Part shown: one piece after another, positions 309 through 18,849 of the stretch
How positions within the stretch are numbered: the first letter of the stretch is position 1
How the letters are laid out: every line of letters starts with the position of its first letter
Virus record (IMG/VR): IMGVR_UViG_3300025644_000176
Coordinates: 1 to 22,638 of that record
Strand: one strand, 5' to 3'
DNA length: 22,638 nucleotides
Source of the DNA: a virus
Translations under genes and position numbers: made by a program
The notes under the pieces: model-generated
The model's database searches: none
The model's input: only the letters and a program-made list of their open reading frames with translations
Told to the model about the DNA's origin: nothing

Positions 309-380
309 TCCTTTTTTATTGTAATATAACTATATTATATCATACTTTTAAGCATCTGTAAAGTGCAAAACCGTATTATT
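309..380 (-). repeat. Promoter-RBS cassette, copy A (duplicate of 1037-1108)
   Basis: These 72 bp match 1037-1108 at 70 positions; the two differences, at 329-330, are AC here and GT there. They form the 2-nt centre of a perfect dyad (TAATATA, 2 nt, TATATTA; 322-337) spanning the -10 and the predicted start site. The cassette carries upstream element, -35, -10, dyad, A-rich leader and the start of the Shine-Dalgarno. Confidence 0.9.
334..362 (-). promoter_or_regulatory. Sigma70-type early promoter with extended -10
   Basis: On the minus strand TTTACA (362-357) is followed by a 17-bp spacer and TATAAT (339-334), preceded by TG to give TGATATAAT. The upstream bases TACGGTTTTGCAC recur at other promoters here. 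Predicted start is near 327, giving a leader of about 23 nt that holds the Shine-Dalgarno of the 1-304 gene. It begins just after the cytochrome gene's stop codon. Confidence 0.85.
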
Positions 381-660
381 CACCAAATAAATATAAGCCA
401 ATATCTTCTTCATACCCAGCCGCCATAGGTGCCATCGCGTTCATCGTTGAATCCACTCTAGCGCCAGTTTGAAAATCCTTCAACTGTTTAACAATAAAAG
501 CCGTATCTTTCCCAGCCAAGCTTGGATATACAGGAATTGATGAAACACCACTCACTCCATGACAACCACTACAACCAAGACTATTATACATCGCCTCACC
601 ATTAACCGCGTCGCCTGCATTAACATTTAATGCAAGAAATAACATCGCCAATTTTTTCAT
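376..660 (-). CDS. Class I c-type cytochrome (c4/c553-like), exported
   Basis: A 94-aa monohaem cytochrome c, an electron carrier that would act in the host periplasm. A short signal peptide (residues 1-15: KK, then a hydrophobic run, then VNA before Gly16) precedes a haem-binding CSGCH at 30-34. A YPSLAG block (45-50) and QLKDFQTGAR (59-68), typical of the c4/c5-type fold, follow. Met73, Met76 or Met79 (MNAMAPM) can serve as the axial haem ligand. It is short, ending in GLYLFGE where free cytochromes usually have a longer last helix. A strong Shine-Dalgarno AAGGAG lies 8 nt before ATG. It has no promoter of its own and follows two small unknown genes. Electron-transfer carriers of this kind are rare in phages; the natural reading is an auxiliary metabolic gene supporting host respiration (inference). 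Maturation would need the host Ccm/Ccs system. Confidence 0.9.
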   Translation of the reverse strand: MKKLAMLFLALNVNAGDAVNGEAMYNSLGCSGCHGVSGVSSIPVYPSLAGKDTAFIVKQLKDFQTGARVDSTMNAMAPMAAGYEEDIGLYLFGE

Positions 661-1036: not shown

Positions 1037-1108
1037 TCCTTTTTTATTGTAATATAGTTATATTATATCATACTTTTAAGCATCTGTAAAGTGCAAAACC
1101 GTATTATT
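1037..1108 (-). repeat. Promoter-RBS cassette, copy B (duplicate of 309-380)
   Basis: This copy matches 309-380 except at 1057-1058 (GT instead of AC), the centre of the dyad at 1050-1065. Its distal half is read in frame as the last codons of the methyltransferase gene, so the cassette doubles as coding sequence. Confidence 0.9.
1062..1090 (-). promoter_or_regulatory. Sigma70-type early promoter with extended -10
   Basis: TTTACA (1090-1085), 17-bp spacer, TGA-TATAAT (TATAAT at 1067-1062). It reads into the 860-1030, 679-873 and cytochrome genes. It lies partly inside the 3' end of the methyltransferase gene, whose stop codon (1078-1076) falls within the spacer. Confidence 0.85.
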
Positions 1109-1903
1109 TTCAATCTTTCTCCAAAATGCGGGTCTACCGTTCCAACACTTGGTTGCAATTTTTTCATATCCCCATTTTTTCATAGTCTTATTAAATAATC
1201 TATTCATCTGTGGTTTAGTATATGTAACCCCACCATGATAATATTCGTTGAAGTGGCCAATCGCGTCCTGTGTAAAAGCATTGGCTAATAACAAATATCT
1301 TGGATTGGTGTTTATTAAAATATCCTCTAAATGTTCTATGGGGTGATCCCAATGTTCAAAGTATTCTGATGCGAAGATTAGATCTACACTCCCTAAACTA
1401 GAATGGTCGGGTAGCATTGTAAATCCATATTGATTGCCTAAATCTTCTGCCATGGTATATTGATGACTTCCCACTACATTAGTTCCATATACAGTAGCGT
1501 TGGGAAATATATCTCGTTTAAGTACTGATGTAGTATAGCCCACGCCATTGCCTAAATCCACGACTGTATTAACACCCACCATTTGAGATACTACACCTAA
1601 TCTGACAATATCTTTTAAATATTGTCTAGAGTACTTAGTCCAACATAGCCAAGTTTCACAGAAATAATATGGACTTTCATATACGGAATAGTCAGGTACC
1701 CCAGAAGATAATGAATTGTACCATTGGCCCATTAGATTATCCATTTCAACCATTTCTGATTTATCGGAATCTGGTTTATTATGATTTCTTATGGCCGCCC
1801 GTGTAGTGATACGAGCCTTATCAATATCAATATTCCCATGACGAGCACAAAAATCTAGATATTTATCTAAGCCTTTTTTACCAACTTCATTTATCATAAT
1901 CAT
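1076..1903 (-). CDS. Class I SAM-dependent methyltransferase-like protein
   Basis: A 275-aa protein with a Rossmann methyltransferase core: motif I VVDLGNGVGY (114-123, SAM-binding glycine loop), a second strand VYGTNV (138-143) and the motif IV region VDLIFASEYFEHWDHP (173-188). Substrate unknown: the EYFEHW block resembles small-molecule or sugar methyltransferases more than the DPPY/NPPY motif of amino-methylating DNA enzymes. A Cys/Trp-rich stretch (about 78-90) and a basic tail (CWNGRPAFWRK) may bind substrate. ATG 1903 overlaps the end of the HTH gene by 17 bp, so the two are probably co-translated; Met3 is an alternative start. The last eight codons (TVLHFTDA) are made of promoter sequence for the next transcript. 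A link to the sugar genes further downstream in the genome is possible but not shown. Confidence 0.75.
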   Translation of the reverse strand: MIMINEVGKKGLDKYLDFCARHGNIDIDKARITTRAAIRNHNKPDSDKSEMVEMDNLMGQWYNSLSSGVPDYSVYESPYYFCETWLCWTKYSRQYLKDIVRLGVVSQMVGVNTVVDLGNGVGYTTSVLKRDIFPNATVYGTNVVGSHQYTMAEDLGNQYGFTMLPDHSSLGSVDLIFASEYFEHWDHPIEHLEDILINTNPRYLLLANAFTQDAIGHFNEYYHGGVTYTKPQMNRLFNKTMKKWGYEKIATKCWNGRPAFWRKIENNTVLHFTDA

Positions 1904-2150: not shown

Positions 2151-2441
2151 TCAATGTAACATCTTTAATATTTTATTATTCGTTTTAGTGGGTGTCGCGA
2201 CACCAATCTTTTCAACAAAGGCTTGTTTAAATTGATCTAAATTAACCACAGTACCATCCTCCATCATAATGATAGAATTCCAGTTAATTATCAATTCATG
2301 TACTAGGTCGGCCTTATCCCCAACTTCACCGTCCACCGTTATTTCAAATTCAACACAGGAGTCGAAATCATTCCATTCAAAGCACATATTAATTCTATAA
2401 TTAATCGGCTTATCCATTTCTTTCACTTCTACTTCTTCCAT
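2151..2441 (-). CDS. Hypothetical 96-aa phage protein
   Basis: An acidic protein with a beta-rich centre (INYRINMCFEWNDFDSCVEFEITVDGEV) and a helical C-terminal half ending in KILKMLH; two cysteines (about residues 20 and 29). ATG 2441 overlaps the ligase stop by 13 bp, with only a weak GAGG upstream. Met9 (2417) is an alternative start. No catalytic motif or family is recognised. It is the last gene of the transcript that carries the glycosyltransferase and ligase; the next promoter follows within 60 bp. Confidence 0.65.
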   Translation of the reverse strand: MEEVEVKEMDKPINYRINMCFEWNDFDSCVEFEITVDGEVGDKADLVHELIINWNSIIMMEDGTVVNLDQFKQAFVEKIGVATPTKTNNKILKMLH

Positions 2442-3883
2442 AGATTATCCGCCTCATCTTTATCATCCCTCATCTCAACAAATACTGGTAGAAATAAACT
2501 ACCTAGATCATTACTCTTGCTTTTAATCTTGGCATTATATTGTACTGCCACAATATTACCCTTTAAACTATTTCTATTGGACCAGTATTCTTTTCGTTGT
2601 TCATCATCAAAGCCTGTACCCACGGCACATAAAGTGCCACCAGAACTATCCTTTACTATAAATGCCCCTAGCGCACCGGTGAATTTACCTTCACCTTCTT
2701 TGACATCAACGATTTCCAAATCCGCCTCTAATATCTCCTTCATCTTAACTAAATCTGGGCTTCGCTTATTCACCCAAGGAGAACTAATGTTCTTGATGAT
2801 TACACCCTCTTCACCTTTATCTAATAAAGAGTTGAATATTACCGAAGCCGCCTCATAGTCTTTTACAATGTGATTATCAATCATGGTTATGTTCGGTACA
2901 TTTTTAATGATTGAATCTAGGTGATATAATCTAGACTTAGTCAATATATCGCATCGCCCATCATTAAAGTTCTGCATTGGTATATAGTCCCAAGCCACCA
3001 TGCGAACCATTTTTCGCTCCTCATCTGAAATTGTTCCCTTCAATGCTTTATTGAGAATACCATTCCCAGTCTTCCTATCCAGTGGTGTACCATTAGAATC
3101 TACAATCAATAACTCTCCATCTATTACAAAATCATTACTTATATCAACATCAACCAATTCGGTGAATTGTGAACCTACATCGATGGGCTTACCATTGCGA
3201 GTAAATACAGATACATTATAGTCTTTGATTAGAATCATTGCCCTCATGCCATCCATCTTGGTTTGAACAAACGCTGGATAATTAATCTTAGCTAAATTCT
3301 TTTCGTTCATCGATGACGCGAGCATTACTGGAAATTCTGGTATGAAGTCTTTACCCCAGATTTTGTTCGCAGTCTTTTTAGACATACCCACCCTAAGATC
3401 CTTTTTAATAATGCGTTCAATAACTATTGCATCATCGGTTGAAATTCTAGATAAAATATCGGCGAGGTATAGTGCACCAGCACCACCAGTCAATTCTCTT
3501 GATGATAATTTTGACAATTTATTTATACCCCAATCAATATCATATAAATCACAATACTTAATTGTTTCATATTCCGGTATCTTCTTAATATGATATATAA
3601 TTCTTGGGTCCAAAGCATGTATAAGCACAGATTTCAATGATTCATTATCTTTATTTTCTTCTAGTATTGATAGCTTCTCTAATTTCTTAGGTGTCGCTTC
3701 AATCTTATTTAATATTGCCAATATATTTTTCATTTTCTCCTTAAAATCATTACAAGTATAATATAGACTATCAATATATTTAGTATGCTTTTTACACATA
3801 ATCCCTTTGGCCCCATTAACGAAATTCGACCTATGGGCACAGTTATAACATATTGGTTCTATATATTTAATGGCACAGTTCAT
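2429..3883 (-). CDS. lig: ATP-dependent DNA ligase (T4 gp30-like) with N-terminal Cys-rich extension
   Basis: Seals nicks in duplex DNA through a ligase-AMP intermediate, joining Okazaki fragments in phage replication. Motif I is KMDG with the AMP-accepting lysine at 209; motif III is FVIDGELL, motif IV EGVIIKN and motif V VKMKE. Counted from an internal ATG at Met51 (3733), that lysine is residue 159, the number known for T4 ligase, and Met51 is preceded by a strong AAGGAG. From Met51 the N-terminus (KNILAILNKIEATPKK...ENKDNESLK) resembles the start of T4 gp30. The 50 residues before it hold a Cys cluster (C3, C12, C15, C30, H33, C44) ending CNDFKEK, like small phage zinc-binding proteins. 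The gene may therefore yield a full 484-aa fusion, a 434-aa ligase, or both. It starts 8 bp after the UDP-glucose dehydrogenase stop, with no good ribosome-binding site at 3883. Confidence 0.92.
   Translation of the reverse strand: MNCAIKYIEPICYNCAHRSNFVNGAKGIMCKKHTKYIDSLYYTCNDFKEKMKNILAILNKIEATPKKLEKLSILEENKDNESLKSVLIHALDPRIIYHIKKIPEYETIKYCDLYDIDWGINKLSKLSSRELTGGAGALYLADILSRISTDDAIVIERIIKKDLRVGMSKKTANKIWGKDFIPEFPVMLASSMNEKNLAKINYPAFVQTKMDGMRAMILIKDYNVSVFTRNGKPIDVGSQFTELVDVDISNDFVIDGELLIVDSNGTPLDRKTGNGILNKALKGTISDEERKMVRMVAWDYIPMQNFNDGRCDILTKSRLYHLDSIIKNVPNITMIDNHIVKDYEAASVIFNSLLDKGEEGVIIKNISSPWVNKRSPDLVKMKEILEADLEIVDVKEGEGKFTGALGAFIVKDSSGGTLCAVGTGFDDEQRKEYWSNRNSLKGNIVAVQYNAKIKSKSNDLGSLFLPVFVEMRDDKDEADNLWKK
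3731..3742 (-). promoter_or_regulatory. Strong internal ribosome-binding site and start codon inside the ligase frame
   Basis: AAGGAG (3742-3737), then AAA and ATG (3733-3731), in frame with the ligase ORF. This site would start a protein aligned with the T4 ligase N-terminus, whereas the upstream ATG at 3883 lacks a comparable Shine-Dalgarno. AAGGAG-AAA-ATG is also used at the 29-aa gene starting at 12967. Confidence 0.7.
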
Positions 3884-3891
3884 AATCGTTT

Positions 3892-4737
3892 CTAAGCGTT
3901 GTTATTAGTGTTTTGGTGGATATTATAACTAACATTTTGTGCCTTTTCCCTATCATCCAACTCATATAGATTTCTATATTCATTATTTCTCGTGATGGTT
4001 TCCCTAATGATAGTTAAATCTGGGAATAGATTAGAGATTGCCGTGGTGTCTTTAGGGAAGCAGGCGCCCCCATATCCTTTTCTACCATCTGGGCCAGGGA
4101 CTGAAGTATGGCTTATTCCAATTCTTGGGTCTGCGGTAATGCCCTTCATAATCTCTGAATAAGAACAACCGAAAGATTCTATCGCGTCCGACCATTGATT
4201 GAAGAATAAGACTTTGGCTGCCAAGAAAGAATTCATTCCATATTTAACAAAACTTGCCTCCGGTGCAGACATATGATATTTTGGTGCAGGTATGCAGATA
4301 GTATTGTTATTATAATACTCTTCCAATAATTTAGTAACATTGGGTCTACCACCGAATACGTGATGCGTAGCATGTTCAAAGTCATGCAGAGCATTAGTCT
4401 CAGTTAAGAATTCAGGATTGTATACAAATCTCTCATAGGTATCAGATAAAGATTTAACAATATCTGGAGTCACTGTGGACTTCAAAACAATGATACCATC
4501 ATAGCCATTAATCTCTTTTATCACAGTATCGATAATGGATGAATCAATACTACCATCGCCGCTCATAGGTGTCGGCACACAGATGAAGATAACTTCTGGA
4601 TTTGAGGCCATTACATCTTTTGTGGTAGTTCCCAATAAAGGATCTGAGATCACGATACTATTATCATCTTTAGTAAAGCCATGCACCACCGCCTTACCAA
4701 CAAACCCATTACCAATTACACCAATGTTTATACACAT
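3892..4737 (-). CDS. Short UDP-glucose/GDP-mannose dehydrogenase family protein
   Basis: Predicted to oxidise a nucleotide sugar, most likely UDP-glucose to UDP-glucuronate, using two NAD+. The NAD-binding loop is GNGFVG (9-14), followed by CVPTP (53-57), VLKSTV (84-89) and NPEFLTE (107-113). Lys165 and Asn169 (ASFVKYGMN) and catalytic Cys226 in GYGGACFPKD complete the active site. At 281 aa it is much shorter than the usual roughly 390-450: the third, UDP-binding Rossmann domain is missing and only a short Asn-rich tail (NIHQNTNNNA) follows. I recall short forms of this kind in other phages. ATG 4737 overlaps the epimerase end by 10 bp, with GGAG 8 nt upstream. With the adjacent epimerase and glycosyltransferase it suggests synthesis and use of an activated sugar. 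Confidence 0.88.
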   Translation of the reverse strand: MCINIGVIGNGFVGKAVVHGFTKDDNSIVISDPLLGTTTKDVMASNPEVIFICVPTPMSGDGSIDSSIIDTVIKEINGYDGIIVLKSTVTPDIVKSLSDTYERFVYNPEFLTETNALHDFEHATHHVFGGRPNVTKLLEEYYNNNTICIPAPKYHMSAPEASFVKYGMNSFLAAKVLFFNQWSDAIESFGCSYSEIMKGITADPRIGISHTSVPGPDGRKGYGGACFPKDTTAISNLFPDLTIIRETITRNNEYRNLYELDDREKAQNVSYNIHQNTNNNA

Positions 4738-5597
4738 AAATCCAACTCCATAATATAATTCATCAAATTACCTTTCTCCACCCAACCTAGGGCCTTCGTC
4801 TTACTAGTCCTTACTTCACCCATCATTCTATTGCCAGGTCTTTCCGGTATGAATTCAATCACAGGCCTAGGCCCTTTAATTGCAATCATTTCAGCAATAG
4901 TGGCTATGGTGTATGCAGTATCAGAGCCTATACCATAGCCATCACCTTCACCCTTCTCACCCACAAGTATAATACCATTGATAATATCATCAATATATGT
5001 AAAGTTCCTCATTTGAGTTCCAGGATTTACCACACTTATCTTTTCGCCATTTCTAACCTTTTCAAGGAATAGAGCAACCACAGTAGCGTACTTACCAGTC
5101 TTAATCTCTCTACCACCGTACACATTATAGAAATAAGTAATGGCATAGTCAATTCCGAACCATTCACCATAGTTTATTACAAGATCCGTATTGGAAGCTT
5201 TAGACCAAGCGTATGGACTCTGATCCCTGCCAGTATTATCATCGGCAAATTTAGTACTCGACCCCGAATAGATTAATCTTGCACCATATTTTCTAACAAA
5301 CTCCAATACAGCGAATGTGCCCTTTTTATTATACTCCAATACTAATTCTACATCTTCAAAGCTTTGTTCCACCCTAGAATATTCACCTAGGTGATAGATA
5401 ATCTCTATATCGGGGTCAATTAATGTTTCAATATCCTTGGTTGAACCAGTAACATATCTCACCCCCGATATGTGATTAAAGATTGAGCCGGTGAAGTAAT
5501 TATCCAGCGAAGTAACTTCATGACCTTCACCCACCAATCTTTCACATAGGTGTGAACCAATAAAACCTGCACCACCCGTCACCAATATTTTAATCAT
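4728..5597 (-). CDS. NAD-dependent sugar-nucleotide epimerase/dehydratase (extended SDR)
   Basis: A 289-aa extended short-chain dehydrogenase. It has the NAD-binding GGAGFIGSH at 8-16, D32N33 after strand 2, the catalytic triad Ser113/114 (YSGSS), Tyr129 and Lys133 (SPYAWSK), and the RNFTYIDD block common to UDP-sugar enzymes. The reaction could be 4-epimerisation, 4,6-dehydration or UDP-glucuronate decarboxylation; the sequence alone does not decide. The neighbouring UDP-glucose dehydrogenase makes a UDP-glucuronate-derived sugar attractive (inference). The start at 5597 (MIKILVTGG) is chosen because the SDR fold begins there; the frame is open for 19 more codons upstream, but those lie inside the preceding gene. 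AGGAG lies about 12 nt upstream and the start overlaps that gene by 8 bp. Confidence 0.9.
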   Translation of the reverse strand: MIKILVTGGAGFIGSHLCERLVGEGHEVTSLDNYFTGSIFNHISGVRYVTGSTKDIETLIDPDIEIIYHLGEYSRVEQSFEDVELVLEYNKKGTFAVLEFVRKYGARLIYSGSSTKFADDNTGRDQSPYAWSKASNTDLVINYGEWFGIDYAITYFYNVYGGREIKTGKYATVVALFLEKVRNGEKISVVNPGTQMRNFTYIDDIINGIILVGEKGEGDGYGIGSDTAYTIATIAEMIAIKGPRPVIEFIPERPGNRMMGEVRTSKTKALGWVEKGNLMNYIMELDLCV

Positions 5598-5919
5598 ATC
5601 TACCCGTAGCTCCTGTTGCGTCTTCAGCCTTGGCCGCGTCTTCACCATCTTCATCCATCCATCTCAATAAAGAGTTTCTATTTCTATCTAATACTGGGTA
5701 CCAAATACTTTTAGTCTTGTTGGTGATCTGAGGTTGACCAATAAGGTCTGCAAAATCTCTAATGTCTTTATCATTACGGAAACGAATTTTAAGCACCAAG
5801 GGAGCTTCGTTATCCTCTTGTATAAATTCCGGCATATCGTCCCAACCGAACGGTGTTTGTTCTTCCTCTCTACCCGTCATTACGAGTAAATTCTGTGGCT
5901 TATCATTTTTCTTAGGCAT
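5590..5919 (-). CDS. Hypothetical 109-aa protein beside the glycosyltransferase
   Basis: A 109-aa soluble protein. The core (about 25-88) contains TPFGWDDMPEF (22-32) and a beta-alpha unit (PLVLKIRFRNDKDIRDFADLIG), then KTKSIWYP and SLLRWMDEDG. The tail is low-complexity, rich in Ala, Asp and Gly. I believe I have seen this TPFGWDDMPEF...KTKSIWYP pattern in other phage proteins of unknown function, but cannot confirm it here. ATG 5919 overlaps the glycosyltransferase stop by 8 bp and has AAGGAAG 6 nt upstream, so tight coupling to that gene suggests a role in the same process. No catalytic residues can be named. Confidence 0.75.
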   Translation of the reverse strand: MPKKNDKPQNLLVMTGREEEQTPFGWDDMPEFIQEDNEAPLVLKIRFRNDKDIRDFADLIGQPQITNKTKSIWYPVLDRNRNSLLRWMDEDGEDAAKAEDATGATGRYD

Positions 5920-6838
5920 TATTTTCTTCCTTATCTTCGTTTGTTAAATCTTCTTCATTCATTCTCATTAATTTCATACCATATTCATTAGTACCCTTAC
6001 TTATATTTAGTCCTTTTTTAAGCACTAGTTTATTGCTGACCTTGAATCCTTCATAATTTACGTGATGATGCCACCTTCCCCATTTCTTTGTAATACGCAC
6101 CACATCCGGGTGTTGGTCTCTCAAAGACTCTGCGAAGGTTAATCTGTTATCGAACGCCTCTCCATCCTTGGCATATACTTCTTCTGTATTACCACCCTCC
6201 ATAGACATTGTTGCCGACTTACCACATAGGAATGCATTGTATAGGAATGTATTATAACCATCCTTTAATATTCGTAAGCTTAGGTCTGTATCTTCATTAT
6301 ATCTTCCACGCCATCTATGAGGAATATCATTACTTAATAGTATACAAGAATATACTCTAGTGTTTAGATAGTAGGGAGGTCGTTTAGAAAACGCGGGGGC
6401 AAAGAATGCATAGTTCATGCCAGACATGGGTACATTTTCATACCTATCAGTAAAGTCTTCACATGCTTTAAAAATATTGCCGGACGTTACTCTGATCTTT
6501 AAATTATTATTTAGTCTATAGAAGTGTCGGATATTGTCATCCATAATCCAATGCCGTGCGTGGCCCTCAGAAATTGAATGTTCCCACACCCAGTTTCTCA
6601 CCGGTATTGAACCACCGATCTGGCCCTTGTCATCAGGTATTGCGTATTTAGGATCTTCTCTGAAGCCTTCGGGTAGTGTCAGAATCTTGTCTGGGTCAAT
6701 TACCGCGGCGTAATCTGCATATTCGCTTTTCTCGATTACAATTCTATATGGAGTATTTAATGCCTCCAATGTTCTCGATGTTTGTCTTGATTCTGCTCTA
6801 CCTTTCGATATAATATAAATTGGATATTTTCCGTTCAT
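5912..6838 (-). CDS. TET-associated-type glycosyltransferase (TAGT family)
   Basis: A 308-aa GT-A-like glycosyltransferase. It begins YPIYIISKGRA (5-15), followed by PYRIVIEKSEY (30-40), GSIPVRNWVWEHS (76-88), the metal-binding-type HWIMDDNI (D100, D101) and RWRGRYNEDTDLSLR (175-189) with acidic NEDTD at 181-185. It ends with QHPDVV and GRWHHHVNY. This pattern fits the TET/JBP-associated glycosyltransferases described in phages, which are thought to modify oxidised pyrimidines in DNA; no TET/JBP dioxygenase or base hydroxymethylase is present in this window. A dedicated promoter (6869-6897) and GGAAGAG just before ATG 6838 make it the first gene of its transcript. Epimerase and UDP-glucose dehydrogenase genes follow and could supply the donor sugar. 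The acceptor (DNA or other) is not shown by the sequence. Confidence 0.82.
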   Translation of the reverse strand: MNGKYPIYIISKGRAESRQTSRTLEALNTPYRIVIEKSEYADYAAVIDPDKILTLPEGFREDPKYAIPDDKGQIGGSIPVRNWVWEHSISEGHARHWIMDDNIRHFYRLNNNLKIRVTSGNIFKACEDFTDRYENVPMSGMNYAFFAPAFSKRPPYYLNTRVYSCILLSNDIPHRWRGRYNEDTDLSLRILKDGYNTFLYNAFLCGKSATMSMEGGNTEEVYAKDGEAFDNRLTFAESLRDQHPDVVRITKKWGRWHHHVNYEGFKVSNKLVLKKGLNISKGTNEYGMKLMRMNEEDLTNEDKEENNA

Positions 6839-6868: not shown

Positions 6869-6897
6869 ATTATAACATATTTTACAGCTTATGTAAA
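6869..6897 (-). promoter_or_regulatory. Sigma70-type early promoter with extended -10
   Basis: TTTACA (6897-6892), 17-bp spacer, TGT-TATAAT (TATAAT at 6874-6869). The -35 and part of the spacer are the last codons of the 6882-7373 gene. Predicted start near 6862 gives a leader of about 24 nt before the glycosyltransferase ATG. The leader includes a three-codon ATG-GAA-GAG-TGA that doubles as the Shine-Dalgarno region. Confidence 0.85.
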
Positions 6898-7373
6898 TAG
6901 GTTTTTGGTAAATATTTACCACCATAATTTGAATTCCACATACCATTAATGGCCTTCTTGGAATTCACAAAATTTAATATTTTGAATGTTACTACATCCC
7001 CGGCCTCTAATAGTCTTTCTGGTCTTATCGTTTCATATAAGAGGAAGTGGGTCAAGAAGTCTTTATCAATTGAATCTGTGATCTTAACCAGCGCCGCGGA
7101 AGATATATTCCAATGTGAATAGTTGATTTCTTTATTGTCTACTTTATAATCATATAGACCCCAATCGTATCTCCAATTAGTTTTCTCATCAGAATAGATC
7201 AATGGCTCATCTACAAATGTATTACGTTCCATCCACCATTCTAGCAATAGGCTATCACATTTGTCTCTACTGTTGAACGCGGAACCATTTTCATATATGT
7301 GATCTCGATAATCTATAAAGTCCTGTGATACTGTAATGACTCTATTATCCAGTATTTTTTTTATTTTATTTAT
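6882..7373 (-). CDS. Hypothetical phage protein, apparent ATA start
   Basis: A protein-like frame, aromatic and acidic, runs from 7373 to its stop at 6884-6882 (163 codons). Recognisable blocks include DNRVITVSQDFIDYRDHIYENG near the start, LLLEWWMERN, ETIRPERLLEAGDVVTF and NSNYGGKYLPK near the end. No ATG or GTG occurs in frame over the first 46 codons. At the exact place where other junctions here have TAATG, this one reads TAATA: the RNase H stop TAA followed by ATA in this frame, then INKIKKILDNRV. Other options are CTG at 7352, TTG at 7247 or ATG at 7232, each of which discards coherent sequence. The start may be a true AUA codon, a G-to-A mutation or a sequence error. Family and function not recognised. 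Confidence 0.7.
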   Translation of the reverse strand: MNKIKKILDNRVITVSQDFIDYRDHIYENGSAFNSRDKCDSLLLEWWMERNTFVDEPLIYSDEKTNWRYDWGLYDYKVDNKEINYSHWNISSAALVKITDSIDKDFLTHFLLYETIRPERLLEAGDVVTFKILNFVNSKKAINGMWNSNYGGKYLPKTYLHKL

Positions 7374-8221
7374 TATACCGATGCTACATCCCCGATTAAG
7401 TTCCTAAGCTTCTTTTTAGTAAAGTAATTAAATATTTTCATCCGGTGTGTAGTACCACTATAATTAGAATATTTGTCATCAATCTCATTTTTAATATCAT
7501 CCGGTGTACAGGTCAAGTCGATCATATTTTTATTAAGCATCCACCTATCCGCCATCTCTGAAGTAGTTAAGAAATCCTCTGGCTTCATTTCAAGCCAAGC
7601 CTCAATATATATCTTCTTCATAGGGGTTTGTCTCTTACTAGTCACAAATGTATCATCGGAAGATAATATATTGGGAATACCATCACCACTATCTCCTCTA
7701 ATGATATGCTCCTTTAAATAGGCCACTGGGTCTTTATGACTAATAAATTTCTTAATAATGGGTGACCATTGCTTTACATCACCCGCACTATGCAATTGTA
7801 TAAAGTCTTTATCGGCCGATACAATAGTGATGGGTTGGTGTCTAGCATATTTAAGAGTGATAAAGCCGATGATGTCATCCGCTTCAGCGCCTTTCACATA
7901 TATAACTTTCCATGGTAGGTTATCATTAATTTCATCTAAGATTAAGTTAAAGATTTTATATACCTCACCCCAATCATAGGGAGAAGCCTCTCTAGTTTTT
8001 TGTCGTGAAGCTTTATAATGTGGAAAAGCTTCGCGCCTCCAACTTCTTGCATCTGCACAGATAACCACTTCATCGGCTTTAAATTTCTTTTTATAACCTA
8101 TAATAGTATTTAGTATCAAGTGGCGGATTAAATCCTCGTTTACATCTTTCTGAGATTTAGTCACAGCCATTAGCGACCCAATCGCAATTCCATTGAAGTC
8201 AATTAACATTAGTTTATTCAT
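7373..8221 (-). CDS. rnh: RNase H / 5'-3' FEN-family nuclease (T4 Rnh-like)
   Basis: A 282-aa flap-nuclease-family enzyme that would remove RNA primers and adjacent DNA from lagging-strand fragments ahead of ligase. The acidic metal-binding residues are laid out as expected: Asp8 (LMLIDFNG), Asp57 (CADARSWRR), Glu113, Asp115 and Asp116 (GAEADDIIGF), Asp137 and Asp139 (SADKDFIQL), Asp177 and Asp180 (GDSGDGIPN, helix-hairpin-helix region). A basic patch HYKASRQKTR (68-77) fits the arch that grips the 5' end. T4 Rnh is 305 aa, so the length is normal. ATG 8221 overlaps the topoisomerase stop as ATGA, indicating coupled translation. Its stop codon is shared with the odd start of the next gene. 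Confidence 0.93.
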   Translation of the reverse strand: MNKLMLIDFNGIAIGSLMAVTKSQKDVNEDLIRHLILNTIIGYKKKFKADEVVICADARSWRREAFPHYKASRQKTREASPYDWGEVYKIFNLILDEINDNLPWKVIYVKGAEADDIIGFITLKYARHQPITIVSADKDFIQLHSAGDVKQWSPIIKKFISHKDPVAYLKEHIIRGDSGDGIPNILSSDDTFVTSKRQTPMKKIYIEAWLEMKPEDFLTTSEMADRWMLNKNMIDLTCTPDDIKNEIDDKYSNYSGTTHRMKIFNYFTKKKLRNLIGDVASV

Positions 8222-9810: not shown

Positions 9811-9839
9811 ATTATATCATAAAATAGGGCCTGTGTAAA
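9811..9839 (-). promoter_or_regulatory. Sigma70-type early promoter with extended -10
   Basis: TTTACA (9839-9834), 17-bp spacer, TGA-TATAAT (TATAAT at 9816-9811), with the shared upstream sequence AATACGGTTTTGCAC (about 9854-9840). It sits between the NTP-pyrophosphatase-like gene and the 95-aa gene, about 30 bp before the latter's ATG. Confidence 0.85.
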
Positions 9840-9858
9840 GTGCAAAACCGTATTTATT

Positions 9859-12263: not shown

Positions 12264-12502
12264 TGCACACCCACACTTGTTACTTGGTCGAAGTGAAAAG
12301 AACGCCATTGTGCATTTCCATCCACCATTTCAGTGACTACCAGCATATCATCAGCATGTTCTCTACCCCCGTTACCGGAAGTTTCTGCCACCAAATCCTC
12401 TCTAGTAGTAAAAAAGCCTTGGCGTTCACTGCCATCCTTCTTTGTGAATGTGATGTCCACCACACCTTCTTTTAACCAACCCCTCAATTCATTAATATTC
12501 AT
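12260..12502 (-). CDS. Small SH3-barrel-like protein (resembles DUF2693-type)
   Basis: An 80-aa protein. MNINELRGWLKEGVVDITFTKKDGSER is the opening pattern (residues 1-27), then a glycine/glutamate-rich middle and a beta-rich end (MLVVTEMVDGNAQWRSFHFDQVTSVGVQ). The 'L-x-x-G-V-V-x-I-T-F-T-K-K-D-G' opening resembles the small viral SH3-like proteins known as DUF2693; this is by recollection only. The role of that family is not established. AGGAG lies about 11 nt before ATG 12502. It overlaps the next gene as ATGA. Confidence 0.7.
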   Translation of the reverse strand: MNINELRGWLKEGVVDITFTKKDGSERQGFFTTREDLVAETSGNGGREHADDMLVVTEMVDGNAQWRSFHFDQVTSVGVQ

Positions 12503-12520
12503 AATATATTTTTCTCCTAT

Positions 12521-12727
12521 TTATGTAAAATATTGATATACTCCATCGACTCGCGCCTGTGTACGTTTCCACACCAATCTATCTTCATCTTTAATGGCCC
12601 TATATGGTAAATTCATAATGTCATCTTCTCTTTTTCTGGCCTGTTCAATGACACCACCGTTAGCCAAAAACTCAGCCACTTGACCTTTTAAAATTGCCCT
12701 TGCCTTATCTTTTTCTGCTTGACTCAT
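12521..12727 (-). CDS. Hypothetical 68-aa phage protein
   Basis: ATG 12727 (MSQAEKDKARAILKGQ) is chosen because AGGAG lies 7 nt upstream; the frame extends 7 codons further without a ribosome-binding site. The protein is helical and charged, with VAEFLANGGVIEQ (about 17-29) followed by KREDDIMNLPYRA and a WKRTQARVDGV segment. The FLANGGxIxQ stretch recalls short phage DNA-binding or regulatory proteins, but I cannot assign a family. It overlaps the end of the 57-aa membrane protein gene by 23 bp, consistent with coupled translation. Confidence 0.68.
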   Translation of the reverse strand: MSQAEKDKARAILKGQVAEFLANGGVIEQARKREDDIMNLPYRAIKDEDRLVWKRTQARVDGVYQYFT

Positions 12728-12878
12728 TATACTGCTCCTCATAATCATTTAAAATACCATTGACAATATCATTAACAATATCATCCACCTCATTTCTAAA
12801 TTTATTGAACCCAATTGTGACGCCTATCCAATATGAAAAAAGCATTAAACCGGATGTGATAAACCAATAATATTCCAT
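12705..12878 (-). CDS. Small membrane protein with acidic tail, 57 aa
   Basis: An ORF encoding MEYYWFITSGLMLFSYWIGVTIG (N-terminal transmembrane helix, about residues 4-24), then NKFRNEVDDIVNDIVNGIL, an amphipathic acidic helix, and a charged end NESSRKR. ATG 12878 shares its A with the stop codon of the preceding microprotein (TGATG), so translation is almost certainly coupled. The C-terminal region overlaps the 68-aa gene by 23 bp and carries its Shine-Dalgarno GAGGAG. The layout (membrane anchor plus acidic coil) suits an inner-membrane anchored inhibitor or adaptor, but that is speculation. Confidence 0.65.
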   Translation of the reverse strand: MEYYWFITSGLMLFSYWIGVTIGFNKFRNEVDDIVNDIVNGILNDYEEQYNESSRKR

Positions 12879-12967
12879 CACTGTACCAACTTTAATTTAG
12901 TATGTAGACTACCTAGATACCAACCGATACCCACCGCCATAAAAACTATCGCAAATTCAAACATCAT
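12878..12967 (-). CDS. Membrane microprotein, 29 aa
   Basis: An ORF of 29 codons encoding MMFEFAIVFMAVGIGWYLG, a single hydrophobic helix, then SLHTKLKLVQ. Despite its size it has a textbook translation start: AAGGAG, AAA, ATGATG at 12967-12962. The first ATG overlaps the stop of the upstream microprotein (ATGATG containing TGA), and its own stop overlaps the next start (TGATG). Such a seamless chain makes chance unlikely. Topology is probably N-out with a basic cytoplasmic tail (inference). Confidence 0.65.
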   Translation of the reverse strand: MMFEFAIVFMAVGIGWYLGSLHTKLKLVQ

Positions 12968-13065
12968 TTTCTCCTTATTTTTCTAATTTCATTTTTCATA
13001 TTAGACATATTTATATGAAAAATACCTATAAAAATCACTAACGCAAAAAATTGTAAATACTCCAT
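12964..13065 (-). CDS. Membrane microprotein, 33 aa
   Basis: Encodes MEYLQFFALVIFIGIFHI, a hydrophobic helix, followed by a very basic tail KNEIRKIRRK. CAGGAGA lies about 7 nt before ATG 13065, and that ATG shares a base with the stop of the HAD-phosphatase gene (TAATG). Its own stop is embedded in the next start. The opening MEY plus aromatic hydrophobic run resembles that of the 57-aa protein (MEYYWFI), hinting at a common origin for at least two members of the group (weak evidence). Confidence 0.65.
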   Translation of the reverse strand: MEYLQFFALVIFIGIFHINMSNMKNEIRKIRRK

Positions 13066-13646
13066 TAAACTTCTCCTGTTATTTTATTATATATCTCTTT
13101 CCAATCCTGCACACGAATATCTAAGTGTTCCCCGACATTATGATTATGTGCCATCATAATAGGGCTTAGTCCAACATTATAACCAGCCTCAATGTTAGTG
13201 GGCTTATCTTCCACCCAATAACAACCAGAGTCTTTCCACTTAGCTAATTCTTTATCTTTATCATCGCCTTGACCTAATATAGTAATACCTTCAAAGACTT
13301 CCTTACCGAACAATGTTTCTAAGTTATACTTACGAAATTCCTTAGCAGCATCATCCGATGTTTGACTAGTGATTACATGAAACCTATAACCATGATCAGT
13401 ATATAACTTGCGTACATATTTAACAGCGTCACGCAATGGACCTAAGTTAGCCGTGTGAGCAGAAGAATTGAATTGACTAACATACTTATGACCCTCGCGT
13501 GGAGTAATTCCATATACTTTACCTATGTTGTACAATGATTTATTGATGGGCTTCATATCAAATTTTTCCAACATCCAATTATGGAAGTATGGTTCCCAAT
13601 CTAATAGGACTCCATCGCAATCAACTAAAATTATATTGTCTTTCAT
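13065..13646 (-). CDS. HAD-superfamily phosphatase, 5'-deoxynucleotidase-like
   Basis: A 193-aa HAD hydrolase. Motif I DCDGV carries nucleophile Asp9 and Asp11, motif II is ITS (Thr93/Ser94), and WVEDKPTNIEAG (144-155) supplies the motif IV acidic pair (Glu146, Asp147). A lysine for motif III is available in DDKDKELAKW (128-137). The helical cap between 20 and 70 and the overall length resemble cytosolic 5'(3')-deoxyribonucleotidases, which dephosphorylate nucleoside monophosphates; a different small phosphorylated substrate cannot be excluded. It starts TAATG on the upstream gene and ends TAATG into a microprotein gene, so it belongs to the same transcript. In a phage making its own dNTPs it could trim an unwanted nucleotide (inference). 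Confidence 0.82.
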   Translation of the reverse strand: MKDNIILVDCDGVLLDWEPYFHNWMLEKFDMKPINKSLYNIGKVYGITPREGHKYVSQFNSSAHTANLGPLRDAVKYVRKLYTDHGYRFHVITSQTSDDAAKEFRKYNLETLFGKEVFEGITILGQGDDKDKELAKWKDSGCYWVEDKPTNIEAGYNVGLSPIMMAHNHNVGEHLDIRVQDWKEIYNKITGEV

Positions 13647-14020
13647 TATACTATATTCACCCTCGCATTAACATGTTGTTGACTTAATTTATATCTATTA
13701 CCCGTGTGCACAGTCTCTACAATGAATGGGTATTTTCTATTCTTTGTTTTATATCCAACGAATCTGACTTCACCTAATTGTTTAATTCTAATTATATCAT
13801 TTTCTTTGAAATCGGAATATAGTTCTAATTCCATAGCCTCTCTAGATTGTGATCCGTGTAATTTAGCGTCAATCGTTATTGTCGCGGTTGAATCATTATA
13901 ATTAATTTTCTCCGATCTAATATCAAGGCCGACCTTTACACCAAATTTAGTTAATACCGCGTCCAATTCATGACGGAATTCTTTTAAATTACCTTTGTTA
14001 AATTCATTAATTTTTTTCAT
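13646..14020 (-). CDS. Hypothetical 124-aa phage protein with beta-rich C-terminus
   Basis: The N-terminal half (about 1-65) mixes helices with ITIDAKLHG. The C-terminal half (about 70-124) is beta-rich, with ENDIIRIKQLGEVRFVGYKTKNRKYPF as a span and a closing VHTGNRYKLSQQHV. A pattern of 'G-x-x-R-F-x-G-Y' then 'RKYPF' then 'YKLS' recurs in T4-like phage hypotheticals as I remember them, possibly a KOW/SH3-type barrel. ATG 14020 has AAAGGA about 7 nt upstream, and a -10 element lies just before. The gene overlaps the HAD gene as TAATG. No catalytic residue is visible. Confidence 0.72.
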   Translation of the reverse strand: MKKINEFNKGNLKEFRHELDAVLTKFGVKVGLDIRSEKINYNDSTATITIDAKLHGSQSREAMELELYSDFKENDIIRIKQLGEVRFVGYKTKNRKYPFIVETVHTGNRYKLSQQHVNARVNIV

Positions 14021-14044
14021 TTTTATGTCCTTTTTTTATTTTAT

Positions 14045-14074
14045 ATTATATCATTGATTCTTGAATTTTGTTGA
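14045..14074 (-). promoter_or_regulatory. Probable promoter: extended -10 with weak -35
   Basis: TGA-TATAAT (TATAAT at 14050-14045) is followed by the same A-rich leader (AAAATAAAAAAAGGA) seen at other promoters. The best -35 is TCAACA (14074-14069) with an 18-bp spacer, so this site would depend more on the extended -10. It lies just upstream of the 124-aa gene and overlaps the end of the 21-codon ORF. Confidence 0.55.
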
Positions 14075-14116
14075 TTTTCTTTTGTGTTTCAAATTAATTT
14101 CGCGTTCTTGTTTCAT
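14051..14116 (-). CDS. Possible tiny basic peptide, 21 aa
   Basis: An ORF of 21 codons, MKQEREINLKHKRKSTKFK plus NQ, starts TAATG on the stop of the 81-aa gene. The composition is very basic. Its stop TGA is part of the extended -10 of the next promoter. Coupling and composition are the only support; it may simply be spacer with a chance start. Confidence 0.35.
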   Translation of the reverse strand: MKQEREINLKHKRKSTKFKNQ

Positions 14117-14361
14117 TATGCCACCAACCTTTTGAAAGATTTGATGTCGTTTTCAAGACCGTGTTTAAAATCAATAATCATTTCAATTTCAGATATTTCT
14201 GTTTCTGTTTCAAACAGTTCTTTTTTGATTTTGTTTGCGACTTTTAATGCTTTTGATTTAGTTGTAAAGGTTTCGTAAAAACCTTCCCATTCATAATCAT
14301 CAACATAAGTTGTAACGTCCCAGTTATGTTCACTATGACTAATATAAATTGTTGCTAACAT
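14116..14361 (-). CDS. Hypothetical 81-aa phage protein
   Basis: ATG 14361 (MLATIYISHSEHNW) is chosen because GGAGA lies about 7 nt upstream; a GTG ten codons earlier extends the frame but sits directly on the leader. The protein opens with a beta hairpin (TIYISHSEHNWDVTTYVDDYEW as a span), then a helix with KSKALKVANKIKKELFETE and an acidic/basic C-terminal end. No motif is recognised. It is driven by the promoter at 14413-14441 and followed by the possible 21-aa peptide. Confidence 0.7.
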   Translation of the reverse strand: MLATIYISHSEHNWDVTTYVDDYEWEGFYETFTTKSKALKVANKIKKELFETETEISEIEMIIDFKHGLENDIKSFKRLVA

Positions 14362-14412
14362 TTTGTGTCTCCGTTTTATTAAAAGTAACACCTTTTTTTA
14401 TTTTATATGTAT

Positions 14413-14441
14413 ATTATATCATATTCTAATGCATTTGTAAA
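14413..14441 (-). promoter_or_regulatory. Sigma70-type early promoter with extended -10
   Basis: TTTACA (14441-14436), 17-bp spacer, TGA-TATAAT (TATAAT at 14418-14413), with the shared AATACGGTTTTGCAC upstream. The leader is about 45 nt, longer than at the other sites, to ATG 14361. Confidence 0.85.
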
Positions 14442-14483
14442 GTGCAAAACCGTATTTATTTTAACATTAATGATCTGTTCATA

Positions 14484-14609
14484 TTACTTTTTCTCATTAA
14501 TAATCTTATCAAGGTATTCAAAGAACTCATCCACAATTTGTTTACCCATCATGTTATCAACCGCCCTTCTTTGAGCCTCTTCTTGTTTTTTAGTAATTTT
14601 TCTTTTCAT
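14484..14609 (-). CDS. Small charged protein, 41 aa
   Basis: An ORF encoding MKRKITKKQEEAQRRAVDN then MMGKQIVDEFFEYLDKIINEKK. It is basic at the start, and the second half is an amphipathic helix (IVDEFFEYLDKII). AAGGA lies 7 nt before ATG 14609 and a promoter (14640-14667) directly precedes it, so expression is well supported. It stands alone in its transcript before the next promoter at 14413-14441. It could be a small binding protein aimed at a host factor (inference). Family not recognised. Confidence 0.72.
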   Translation of the reverse strand: MKRKITKKQEEAQRRAVDNMMGKQIVDEFFEYLDKIINEKK

Positions 14610-14639
14610 ATTATATCCTTTTTTATTGTTTATAGTTAT

Positions 14640-14667
14640 ATTATATCATAACTACGGCGAAAGTACA
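14640..14667 (-). promoter_or_regulatory. Extended -10 promoter directly after the terminator
   Basis: TGTACT (14667-14662), 16-bp spacer, TGA-TATAAT (TATAAT at 14645-14640), then ATAACTATAAACAATAAAAA leading into AAGGA. The spacer is one base shorter than at the other sites and the -35 is weaker. It starts new transcripts just 17 bp past the terminator hairpins. Confidence 0.75.
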
Positions 14668-14683
14668 GCGCTATCATCAAATA

Positions 14684-14742
14684 AAAAGGGATATAAAAAG
14701 GTATCCCTTAAGGGATATAAAAAGGTATCCCTTAAGGGATAC
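14684..14742 (-). terminator. Tandem palindromic Rho-independent terminator
   Basis: Read on the minus strand, the 8-bp arms AAGGGATA and TATCCCTT alternate. Two 24-bp hairpin units (14710-14733 and 14686-14709) each have an 8-bp perfect stem and the loop CCTTTTTA, and a further AAGGGATA-complement lies at 14734-14741. The last hairpin is followed by TTTATTTG, a usable U-tract. Adjacent arms can also pair as a 16-bp palindrome (TATCCCTTAAGGGATA), giving competing folds. The stop codon of the SegE-like gene is inside the first arm. Confidence 0.8.
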
Positions 14743-15151
14743 TAAGATTCTTGACTGAATTGTGGTTTAGTTTAATGGCGATAATGCCATTGTAGTTGTC
14801 TTCTCGTAATAGAACATTTTCTTGAACTTGATACCACATCTCCATGTAGTTGGTCTCACCACGAGTTTTACAGAGATGGATAATTTCTCTTTTGAATACC
14901 CCTTTACCAAGCTCTTCAATAGCCGCGGTAAGTCTATTCGACGAACCATAGTAAGAATCCCAATCGGTTTCAACTATTTTAATTCGTTTTCGTTTCTTGC
15001 CCTTCAATGGTTTTAATTTACGTTTGGTGTAAAAATACTTCCTTCCAACATAATCATACCCATTATCAGTATTGGTGATGCGATATATAAAACCGTAGTT
15101 TTCACCAATATCTTCCTTTTCAAATTTTTTGCCATTATATATCCATTCCAT
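14732..15151 (-). CDS. SegE-like GIY-YIG domain protein
   Basis: A 139-aa protein resembling the SegE-type GIY-YIG putative endonucleases of T4-like phages. The core pair is GFIYRITN (20-27) and YVGRKYF (34-40), followed by a very basic stretch KLKPLKGKKRKRIKIVE and then DWDSYYGSS, FKREIIHLC and NYMEMWYQ, where Glu103 is the likely metal ligand. It ends with YNGIIAIKLNHNSVK. This would be a nicking or cleaving endonuclease, possibly domesticated. It lies directly after nrdB, and homing nucleases are often found near nrd genes in T4-like phages. There is no intron sign in nrdB here. It starts 22 bp after nrdB without a clear Shine-Dalgarno and ends inside the terminator. Confidence 0.75.
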   Translation of the reverse strand: MEWIYNGKKFEKEDIGENYGFIYRITNTDNGYDYVGRKYFYTKRKLKPLKGKKRKRIKIVETDWDSYYGSSNRLTAAIEELGKGVFKREIIHLCKTRGETNYMEMWYQVQENVLLREDNYNGIIAIKLNHNSVKNLSIP

Positions 15152-15172
15152 TAATATATTTATTAGTGCTCA

Positions 15173-16336
15173 TCATAAATCATCTATACTGAAGTCTTCA
15201 TCTTTACTCGAGTCGATGGCGGCAATATAATTTACAGATTCGATTTCTTGTGGTGCGCTCTTAACATTGCTTGAATCAAGGTAGTTCTCAACCCACGGTA
15301 ATGGATTGTTGCCAATACTCAAGCCTAACTTAGATGGATTTAAACCAATGTTGGTCATGCGTATTGCGAAGATATAGTCCATGTATTCTTTCAGAATATG
15401 TTCATTCATACCAATCAGAGGTGTACCCTTACTGAATAAGTATTCAACCCACTCCATCTCTTCTTTGTATGCTGTCTCAAACATATCATAAGTTTCATCC
15501 TCTAGTTCTTCTATAATCTCCACGAACCCTTCGGACTTATCTGTTCTTAACATTTTAAGTACTCTTTGGAATACATCTAAATGCACCATTTCATCTCGCG
15601 CAATTAGCTTAAAGATATTACTAGAACCCGCCATCAATTTAGTTGGTTGTTCAGAGAAACTCCAATTAGTAACGAATGTACAGAAGAATCTAATACCTTC
15701 GAACATATTAAGAACTAACGCTGCTTTATAAATTGCAGTCTTAATTAGTTTCTCATCAACTTCAGGGTATATCTTAGCCATGTTATTAGCATTACATGTT
15801 GCATTAGCATCCATCTTATCAAAGATATCGGTCGCCCAATCAAATGCGCCTAGAATACTTGCCGCCCTCTTTTGGATGTGTTCATCACTAGTAATAGAAT
15901 CAATGAACTTATCTACATCATTATAGATAGCTCTTACCATTTCAGTATATGATTCAGAATGAAGTAACTCATTATTCTGATGATTCGTTATATATAGTTC
16001 CCACTCTGGGTTGTTGGAAATACCACCGTTATTGAATAGTTGTAATGGGGCGCGACCTGCACAGGAGTCTAATGTAATTGCGAACTTTAAACCCGCCTCA
16101 TAAATATGTCTACCCGCTTCATCAAGACTATCAAAGTCTTTCTTCTCTTTACTCAAATCAATTTCATTCTTACTCCAGTTTCCTATTGCACGCATCTCTT
16201 CAGCAAAGTCTAGAATCCACGGGTATTTTGGGTCGTGGTATGTTTGAATATTTCTATGACAAGAATTCTCACCAAGAAATAATGTTGTTCCCTTACTATA
16301 TACTGTTTCACCTAAACTAAATATTTTGCAACTCAT
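15173..16336 (-). CDS. nrdB: Ribonucleotide reductase class Ia, beta subunit
   Basis: Houses the di-iron centre and tyrosyl radical that drives NrdA in converting NDPs to dNDPs. All ligands are in place in the 387-aa chain: Asp90 (TLDS), Glu123, His126 and the radical Tyr130 (NELLHSESY), Glu213 (FEGIRFF), Glu249 and His252 (ARDEMVHL). The spacing Glu-x2-His-x3-Tyr matches Escherichia coli E115/H118/Y122. The acidic C-terminus (DEDFSIDDL) would dock on NrdA. Length equals T4 NrdB (about 388). The start at 16336 (MSCKIFSLGE) is chosen for AGGAG 7 nt upstream; the frame is open 12 codons further but overlaps the nrdA end. No intein or intron. It follows nrdA by 10 bp in one transcript. Confidence 0.96.
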   Translation of the reverse strand: MSCKIFSLGETVYSKGTTLFLGENSCHRNIQTYHDPKYPWILDFAEEMRAIGNWSKNEIDLSKEKKDFDSLDEAGRHIYEAGLKFAITLDSCAGRAPLQLFNNGGISNNPEWELYITNHQNNELLHSESYTEMVRAIYNDVDKFIDSITSDEHIQKRAASILGAFDWATDIFDKMDANATCNANNMAKIYPEVDEKLIKTAIYKAALVLNMFEGIRFFCTFVTNWSFSEQPTKLMAGSSNIFKLIARDEMVHLDVFQRVLKMLRTDKSEGFVEIIEELEDETYDMFETAYKEEMEWVEYLFSKGTPLIGMNEHILKEYMDYIFAIRMTNIGLNPSKLGLSIGNNPLPWVENYLDSSNVKSAPQEIESVNYIAAIDSSKDEDFSIDDL

Positions 16337-16346
16337 GCTATAACTC

Positions 16347-18629: not shown

Positions 18630-18630
18630 A

Positions 18631-18849
18631 TCAATACCAATTTTTACCGCTTAACATTTCCTCTGTCTGTCTTGTAGCAAGATCAGCGCTCGGCTCTTTA
18701 AATTTACCATAAGAGATTTTAATCAATCTTTTCCAATTCTTTTCACCACATTTACATGGCTTTAAGTCTTCACATAGAGTCTCAGACCATTTTATAATTT
18801 CGTTAATCTCCTCACCACAAGATTCACATTTAAAATCATATATCGGCAT
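18631..18849 (-). CDS. FmdB-like zinc-ribbon protein
   Basis: A 72-aa protein that opens MPIYDFKCESCGEE, the signature start of the FmdB family, with a zinc-binding CxxC (C8, C11) and a second pair CKCGEK (about 32-35). The rest is basic (KNWKRLIKISYGKF) and ends TEEMLSGKNWY. FmdB-type ribbons are proposed regulatory or nucleic-acid-binding proteins; the phage role is unknown. ATG 18849 shares a base with the primase stop (TAATG) and the stop is one base before nrdA, so it is embedded in the primase-RNR operon. The frame is open five codons further, but MPIY is the usual start. GGAG lies about 9 nt upstream. Confidence 0.82.
   Translation of the reverse strand: MPIYDFKCESCGEEINEIIKWSETLCEDLKPCKCGEKNWKRLIKISYGKFKEPSADLATRQTEEMLSGKNWY

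Follow-up and report, generated by a model that had tools for sequence, protein, structure and literature searches.

Do a glycosyltransferase and two sugar-nucleotide enzymes carried among the replication genes of a T4-like phage serve to decorate the phage DNA or the surface of the host? This question is raised by the IMG/VR virus record IMGVR_UViG_3300025644_000176, a genome fragment that is 22,638 bases long and lacks end repeats, the whole of which was analyzed and is referred to below as the window. Between the genes for RNase H (rnh) and DNA ligase, the window carries a 121-aa open reading frame (ORF) and the genes for a TET-associated glycosyltransferase (TAGT), a 109-aa protein, a short-chain dehydrogenase/reductase (SDR) and a UDP-glucose dehydrogenase (UGD). 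These last four genes, which form a cluster, probably direct the synthesis of an unusual sugar and its attachment to the phage's own DNA as armour, and it seems to us likely, on the basis of the sequence comparisons given below, that the cassette is a DNA-base glycosylation system of a lytic T4-like marine phage.

Organization of the cassette

All the genes concerned are located on the minus strand. The slot is bordered on the left by an RNase H/5'-3' exonuclease of the T4 rnh type (7373..8221; PF02739 1e-19, PF09293 5.8e-12) and on the right by an ATP-dependent DNA ligase of the T4 gp30 type (2429..3883; PF01068 1.1e-22; PHROG 114 (gp30) 1.5e-122). The TAGT (5912..6838, 308 aa), a GT-A-type enzyme proposed to glycosylate DNA bases, matches PF20691 (5.9e-40; 137.8 bits, the cut-off being 27.5) and PHROG 842 (1.2e-43). 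It is followed by the small protein (5590..5919, 109 aa), in which residues ~22-88 form a conserved 65-aa domain with the pattern W..MPEF...KTKSIWYP, by the SDR, a nucleotide-sugar epimerase/dehydratase-type enzyme (PF01370 9.4e-41; ORF as listed 4728-5654), and by a short UDP-glucose/nucleotide-sugar dehydrogenase, the UGD (3892..4737, 281 aa; PF03721 1.3e-14, PF00984 1.8e-14; PHROG 9148 1.9e-40). The TAGT and small-protein ORFs overlap by 8 nt, those of the SDR and the UGD by 10 nt, and a gap of 8 nt separates the UGD from the ligase. The overlap between the small protein and the SDR amounts to 65 nt with the ORF as listed. Both the SDR domain and a plausible ribosome-binding site favour Met20 as the first residue, however, so that translation of the SDR probably begins at 5597 (4728..5597, 289 aa) and the overlap would shrink to 8 nt.

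The TAGT gene is preceded, at a distance of 31 nt, by a promoter-like site (6869..6901, minus strand; TTTACA-17-TATAAT, extended -10) of the type that recurs in this phage. Nine copies of the motif GCACTTTACA-N-TATGATATAAT were counted in the window, every one of them on the minus strand and outside annotated genes, as compared with 0.63 copies per strand on average (maximum 5) in 3-mer shuffles; the copy upstream of the TAGT is a weaker one. No terminator-like site was found between the TAGT and the ligase, and a single transcript spanning the cassette and the ligase is therefore plausible. The ORFs and the Pfam/PHROG matches confirm the arrangement described in the initial annotation, where a TAGT, a small protein, an SDR enzyme and a UGD in overlapping frames were said to run from one promoter into the ligase. 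Apart from the cassette, a ~70-bp element with a strong promoter-like motif recurs on the minus strand at 334-366, 1062-1094, 2102-2134, 9811-9843, and 14413-14445; this motif probably belongs to the phage's own promoter class.

Exchange of cassettes in the rnh-ligase slot

Relatives of the window's lineage were identified by performing a search with NrdA. In L083 and L089, the gp39 of which is 83-84% identical to that of the window, the rnh-ligase slot contains a dCMP hydroxymethylase (gp42, 56% identical to T6 gp42), a cupin-nucleotidyltransferase, FdtA, a hexapeptide acyltransferase, a DegT aminotransferase, a homologue of the T4 beta-glucosyltransferase (beta-GT), and a frame which by eye resembles the C5-methylases of L267 and L271; in G055, the contig of L089, the ligase comes next, at 13,054. 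The slot of L271 (gp39 83%; 12312-19070, followed by the start of the ligase) carries a thymidylate synthase (TS)-type enzyme of the TS superfamily, which shows 27% identity to gp42, an HMUDK-type protein with the 5-hydroxymethyldeoxyuridine kinase helical domain, a myo-inositol-phosphate-synthase-like protein, an FkbM methyltransferase, and a C5-methylase. In G024 (NrdA 86%), gp42 and a DNA alpha-glucosyltransferase (alpha-GT; PF11440, 3e-75) occupy the interval between the DNA polymerase gene (gp43) and uvsX. None of the window's TAGT, small protein, SDR, and UGD was detectable in the fetched parts of L083/L089, L271, and G024. All four are retained in L088, where they are 77-86% identical to those of the window, and in another seven relatives, with NrdA about 75-77% identical, the TAGT and the small protein are encoded directly upstream of nrdA. 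As judged from these gene contents, the rnh-ligase slot exchanges whole cassettes, and the alternatives to the window's cassette are recognizable DNA-modification kits.

As regards the kits themselves, the stretch L083:8288-14194 resembles an amino-deoxysugar DNA modification kit, and that of L271 might give an inositol-linked modification.

The TAGT and its partner protein

The DDN and NEDT motifs of the TAGT are invariant across 22 aligned relatives, and the model of a fused TAGT homologue (not that of the window protein) is matched by GT-A/GT2-type enzymes with Z 12-14. The substrate given in the database annotation of PF20691, that of an alpha-glucosyltransferase, was not carried over to the window TAGT.

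The 109-aa protein has no Pfam or PHROG match. Using a profile built from it, the domain was found in 80 of the 87 TAGT loci, and it is fused N-terminally to the TAGT in 17 ORFs, including those of Aeromonas phiAS5, Tenacibaculum PTm1, Pectobacterium POP12, and Vibrio Kuja. Elsewhere it occurs either in a gene of its own directly downstream of the TAGT, as in the window, or in a gene directly upstream, where it often forms the C-terminus of a longer protein, in some cases with ParB_N-like matches; neighbouring partner and TAGT ORFs mostly overlap by a few nucleotides. L058 encodes a ParB-partner-TAGT fusion, and in L059:9644-11284 and L072:9286-11022 the partner-TAGT protein has an additional C-terminal UDG-like domain, both matches being below the Pfam cut-off. 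A search with the ParB-linked form returned mostly ParB proteins without the partner domain. Because the domain is present in so many TAGT loci and so often fused to the enzyme, the small protein is, as far as such patterns can tell, a conserved TAGT partner, and the pair would work together. The partner would be a docking or DNA-binding subunit. The model of the partner alone was weak (mean pLDDT 67) and did not serve as a query in fold comparisons; the structural alignment of the fused model hardly probed the partner portion.

TAGT loci in other phages

In about 15 long marine contigs, a TAGT of the window's clade, the partner, the UGD, and the SDR lie between the DNA polymerase gene and uvsX-gp41. 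In T6 the order is DNA polymerase (gp43), gp42, TAGT, uvsX, gp40, and gp41. The T6 TAGT adds glucose to glucosyl-5-hydroxymethylcytosine (glucosyl-hmC; PMC13216743, PMC13390438), which raises the possibility that the window TAGT is likewise a second-step enzyme, extending a sugar placed on hmC by another transferase encoded elsewhere in the genome, with the UGD and the SDR providing the second sugar. The presence of gp42 and alpha-GT in the relative G024 and that of two TAGTs in several TAGT phages are in keeping with this idea; the window TAGT is only distant kin of the T6 enzyme, however, and many TAGT genomes (288 of 753; PMC13216743) have neither an alpha- nor a beta-GT, and we consider such a second step quite unlikely.

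An isolate carrying the set was found among the 50,697 records of the phage collection searched. Vibrio phage Kuja (two records) gave the only SDR match more than 50% identical to that of the window, and figures as well in the set of 24 records that have a window-type TAGT; the chance of a given record belonging to this set is about 1 in 2,000. In Kuja, the SDR gene comes after that of a full-length UGD, and about 60 kb separate them from two partner-TAGT fusions. No account of the DNA chemistry of Kuja was found in the papers searched. In another TAGT phage contig, L006:3995-4411 encodes a small secreted-looking protein, cupredoxin-like by eye.

These data bear on the alternative that the cassette modifies the host surface, the UGD and the SDR providing the sugar with which a capsule or an O-antigen-type structure is changed, and the TAGT acting as an envelope glycosyltransferase, in superinfection exclusion or receptor masking. 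Bacterial homologues of the window's SDR subtype, which are 59-62% identical, do occur with full-length UGD (UGD in 4 of 6 loci) and glycosyltransferases in gene clusters of surface-polysaccharide look. The neighbours of the slot are DNA replication genes, however; relatives hold recognized DNA-modification enzymes in the same slot, the TAGTs of some phages carry a fused ParB-like or UDG-like domain, and the PF20691 members known to have been characterized act on DNA sugars (PMC13216743). A role in the envelope is in our view very improbable. The part of the initial annotation which favoured DNA over the envelope as the target of hypermodification is supported by the exchange of cassettes in the slot, the gp43-uvsX location, the partner domain, and the combination in Kuja of a TAGT with the same SDR subtype and a UGD; its suggestion of a pentose is weakened.

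The donor-sugar enzymes

The UGD and the SDR are found together in 18 of the 79 IMG/VR TAGT loci, in either order and mostly as direct neighbours, and with two forms of UGD. The window UGD retains the catalytic Glu, Lys, Asn, and Cys motifs (GYGGACFPKD, KYGMNSFLAAK, NPEFLTE), but has no match to PF03720, the C-terminal UDP-binding domain, for which there is no room in 281 aa. The same short form occurs in most of the other loci, and a full-length UGD in L008, L010, L016, and L023-L025 (PF03720 in L024). Since the full-length enzyme replaces the short one in the same context, the comparison suggests that the short UGD still makes UDP-glucuronate.

Three SDR subtypes adjoining the TAGT were distinguished by alignment. 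Subtype A, that of the window, has GSSTKF and no glutamate at the catalytic position of UDP-xylose synthase (UXS). Subtype B carries HLAAYAGVRHSLEEP and FFTVYGP, which we take to be the UDP-glucuronate 4-epimerase pattern, and subtype C, found in L027, L040, and L066, carries ASTSEVYGDP with its TSE signature, the UDP-xylose-synthase pattern. All three would act on UDP-glucuronate, the product of the UGD. Phage C48C1, a relative in which no TAGT match was reported, has a subtype-B SDR and a short UGD, and its TET/JBP enzyme lies beside a UDP-galactopyranose mutase; these last two and a 344-aa unknown protein form one operon (L181:4584-8031).

Were the window SDR itself a UXS, the DNA would carry a pentose, by analogy with RB69. 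The best solved-structure matches of the SDR are indeed UDP-glucuronate decarboxylases, with UDP-glucose 4-epimerase close behind, and SDRs with the UXS signature accompany the TAGT in the three subtype-C loci. On the other hand, the window SDR has GSSTKF in place of this signature, and NCBIfam gave it no name, no equivalog cut-off being reached. A pentose is thus an unlikely product.

The base acceptor

Several points weigh against the assignment of the cassette to DNA-base glycosylation. Neither gp42 nor any other acceptor-making enzyme is present in the window, although this says little because the window is a fragment. PF00303 and PF12851 gave no match in the 21 TAGT-locus contigs tested with both profiles, which are up to 177 kb long and perhaps incomplete. 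The pairwise similarity between the window TAGT and the T6 TAGT is not significant. The UGD and the SDR are themselves no proof of a role in DNA, because bacterial SDR homologues lie in polysaccharide-like clusters, and the activity of the short UGD is not assured, because the UDP-binding domain is absent.

The source of a C5-hydroxymethyl group, which the initial annotation proposed to look for elsewhere in the genome, was found as gp42 in close relatives and not in this phage, nor was a TS-type or TET enzyme found in the long TAGT contigs. Searches of TAGT contigs for TET/JBP enzymes and C5-methylases were almost all negative, and PF12851 (TET/JBP) has no match in the complete TAGT isolates phiAS5, PTm1, Kuja, POP12, and henriette. 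A pyrimidine hydroxymethylase is annotated in PTm1; the complete genomes of phiAS5, Kuja, POP12, and henriette have an annotated thymidylate synthase (split in POP12), in which no gp42-like motif was seen. Because of these long contigs without PF00303 or PF12851 and these isolates without a gp42-like motif, hmC may not be the acceptor in every case. ThyX, present in five long cassette contigs, was considered as a source of hydroxymethyl groups and set aside, nothing pointing beyond dTMP synthesis. It is conceivable, though rather doubtful, that the partner-TAGT pair glycosylates DNA without hydroxymethylcytosine made by gp42 or TET, through another base acceptor or a route of its own, installing charged uronic-acid-type sugars which are switched by exchange of the SDR.

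Proposed mechanism

In the DNA-base glycosylation system proposed here, the cassette occupies a slot, bounded by rnh and the ligase, in which hypermodification genes can be exchanged. The phage UGD would oxidize host UDP-glucose to UDP-glucuronate, which the subtype-A SDR would alter at or near C4 to give a derived sugar, uronic or other. The TAGT and its partner, as a DNA- or enzyme-docking subunit, would then move this sugar onto a hydroxylated base in the phage DNA, where it would block restriction, Cas or other nucleases. The sequence comparisons show the gene content, the domain families, the linkage and fusion of the partner with the TAGT, and the exchange of cassettes in the slot; DNA as the acceptor, the order of the steps, and the class of sugar are what we infer from these data. 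The sugar might be capped by a SAM methyltransferase-like protein (1076..1903, minus strand; Methyltransf_23 1.5e-5, below the cut-off), tentatively regarded as a tailoring enzyme of the cassette; its homologues adjoin the TAGT in L010, L016, L023, L025, L049, L056, L059, and L275.

Other features of the window

Apart from RNase H and the gp30 ligase, the T4-type replication genes identified on the minus strand by Pfam/PHROG matches encode a primase, NrdA, NrdB, and the large and medium subunits of topoisomerase. A SegE-type GIY-YIG homing endonuclease (14732-15151, minus strand) lies in the nrdB-topoisomerase interval. The ORF at 376-660 (minus strand) encodes a 94-aa protein with a CxxCH motif, a possible signal peptide and a Pfam cytochrome c match (7e-5, above the cut-off), and would be a phage-encoded c-type cytochrome. 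None of the Rfam families reached the threshold in a scan of the window.

Comparison with known systems

No description of the TAGT-partner-UGD-SDR set was found in a limited literature search, and in a 2026 paper the function of the TAGT was left undefined in many phages lacking alpha- and beta-GT (PMC13216743). The cassette gives testable candidates for these lone-TAGT phages, namely a UDP-glucuronate donor pathway, a conserved partner domain, and an isolate, Kuja, holding the set. That close marine T4-like kin swap whole DNA-sugar chemistries is what would be expected if host nucleases select for diversity.

The beta-glucosyl-HMC alpha-glucosyltransferase (Ggt) of T6/T2 belongs to the same Pfam (PF20691) and PHROG families as the window TAGT, and the T6 enzyme is a DNA-sugar glucosyltransferase (PMC13216743) encoded in the gp43-uvsX location common to window-clade TAGTs in other marine T4-like contigs. 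T6 differs in using host UDP-glucose, with no phage UGD or SDR and no partner-domain gene beside the TAGT, and in having an adjacent gp42, of which there is none in the window.

RB69 is also a T4-like phage, and the sugar-nucleotide genes of its arabinosyl-cytosine module lie beside the DNA polymerase gene, between it and uvsX (PMC6024577). The parallel with RB69 and its pentose drawn in the initial annotation is weak, however: the RB69 enzymes are unrelated, comprising a pathway of isomerase, kinase, and NTP-transferase together with a transferase of the GT-B type, and the part of the genome inspected has no annotated UGD, SDR or TAGT; the window SDR lacks the UXS signature; and the RB69 acceptor has been identified in later work as 5-hydroxycytosine, not 5-hydroxymethylcytosine (PMC13390438).

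A precedent for the cassette is Bacillus phage SP-15, which carries a UGD near its DNA ligase, along with glycosyltransferases; its DNA chemically bears glucuronate, with a phosphodiester link to dihydroxypentyluracil (PMC5977210). It is an unrelated phage in which no TAGT is reported and no SDR was seen near the UGD, and the modified base is thymine, with glucuronate/glucose. Vibrio phage vB_VchM_Kuja differs from the window in its full-length UGD, in the separation of the two gene groups and in belonging to the Ackermannviridae, but it is an isolate which combines two partner-TAGT fusions with an SDR of subtype A (51% identical) and, next to it, a UGD.

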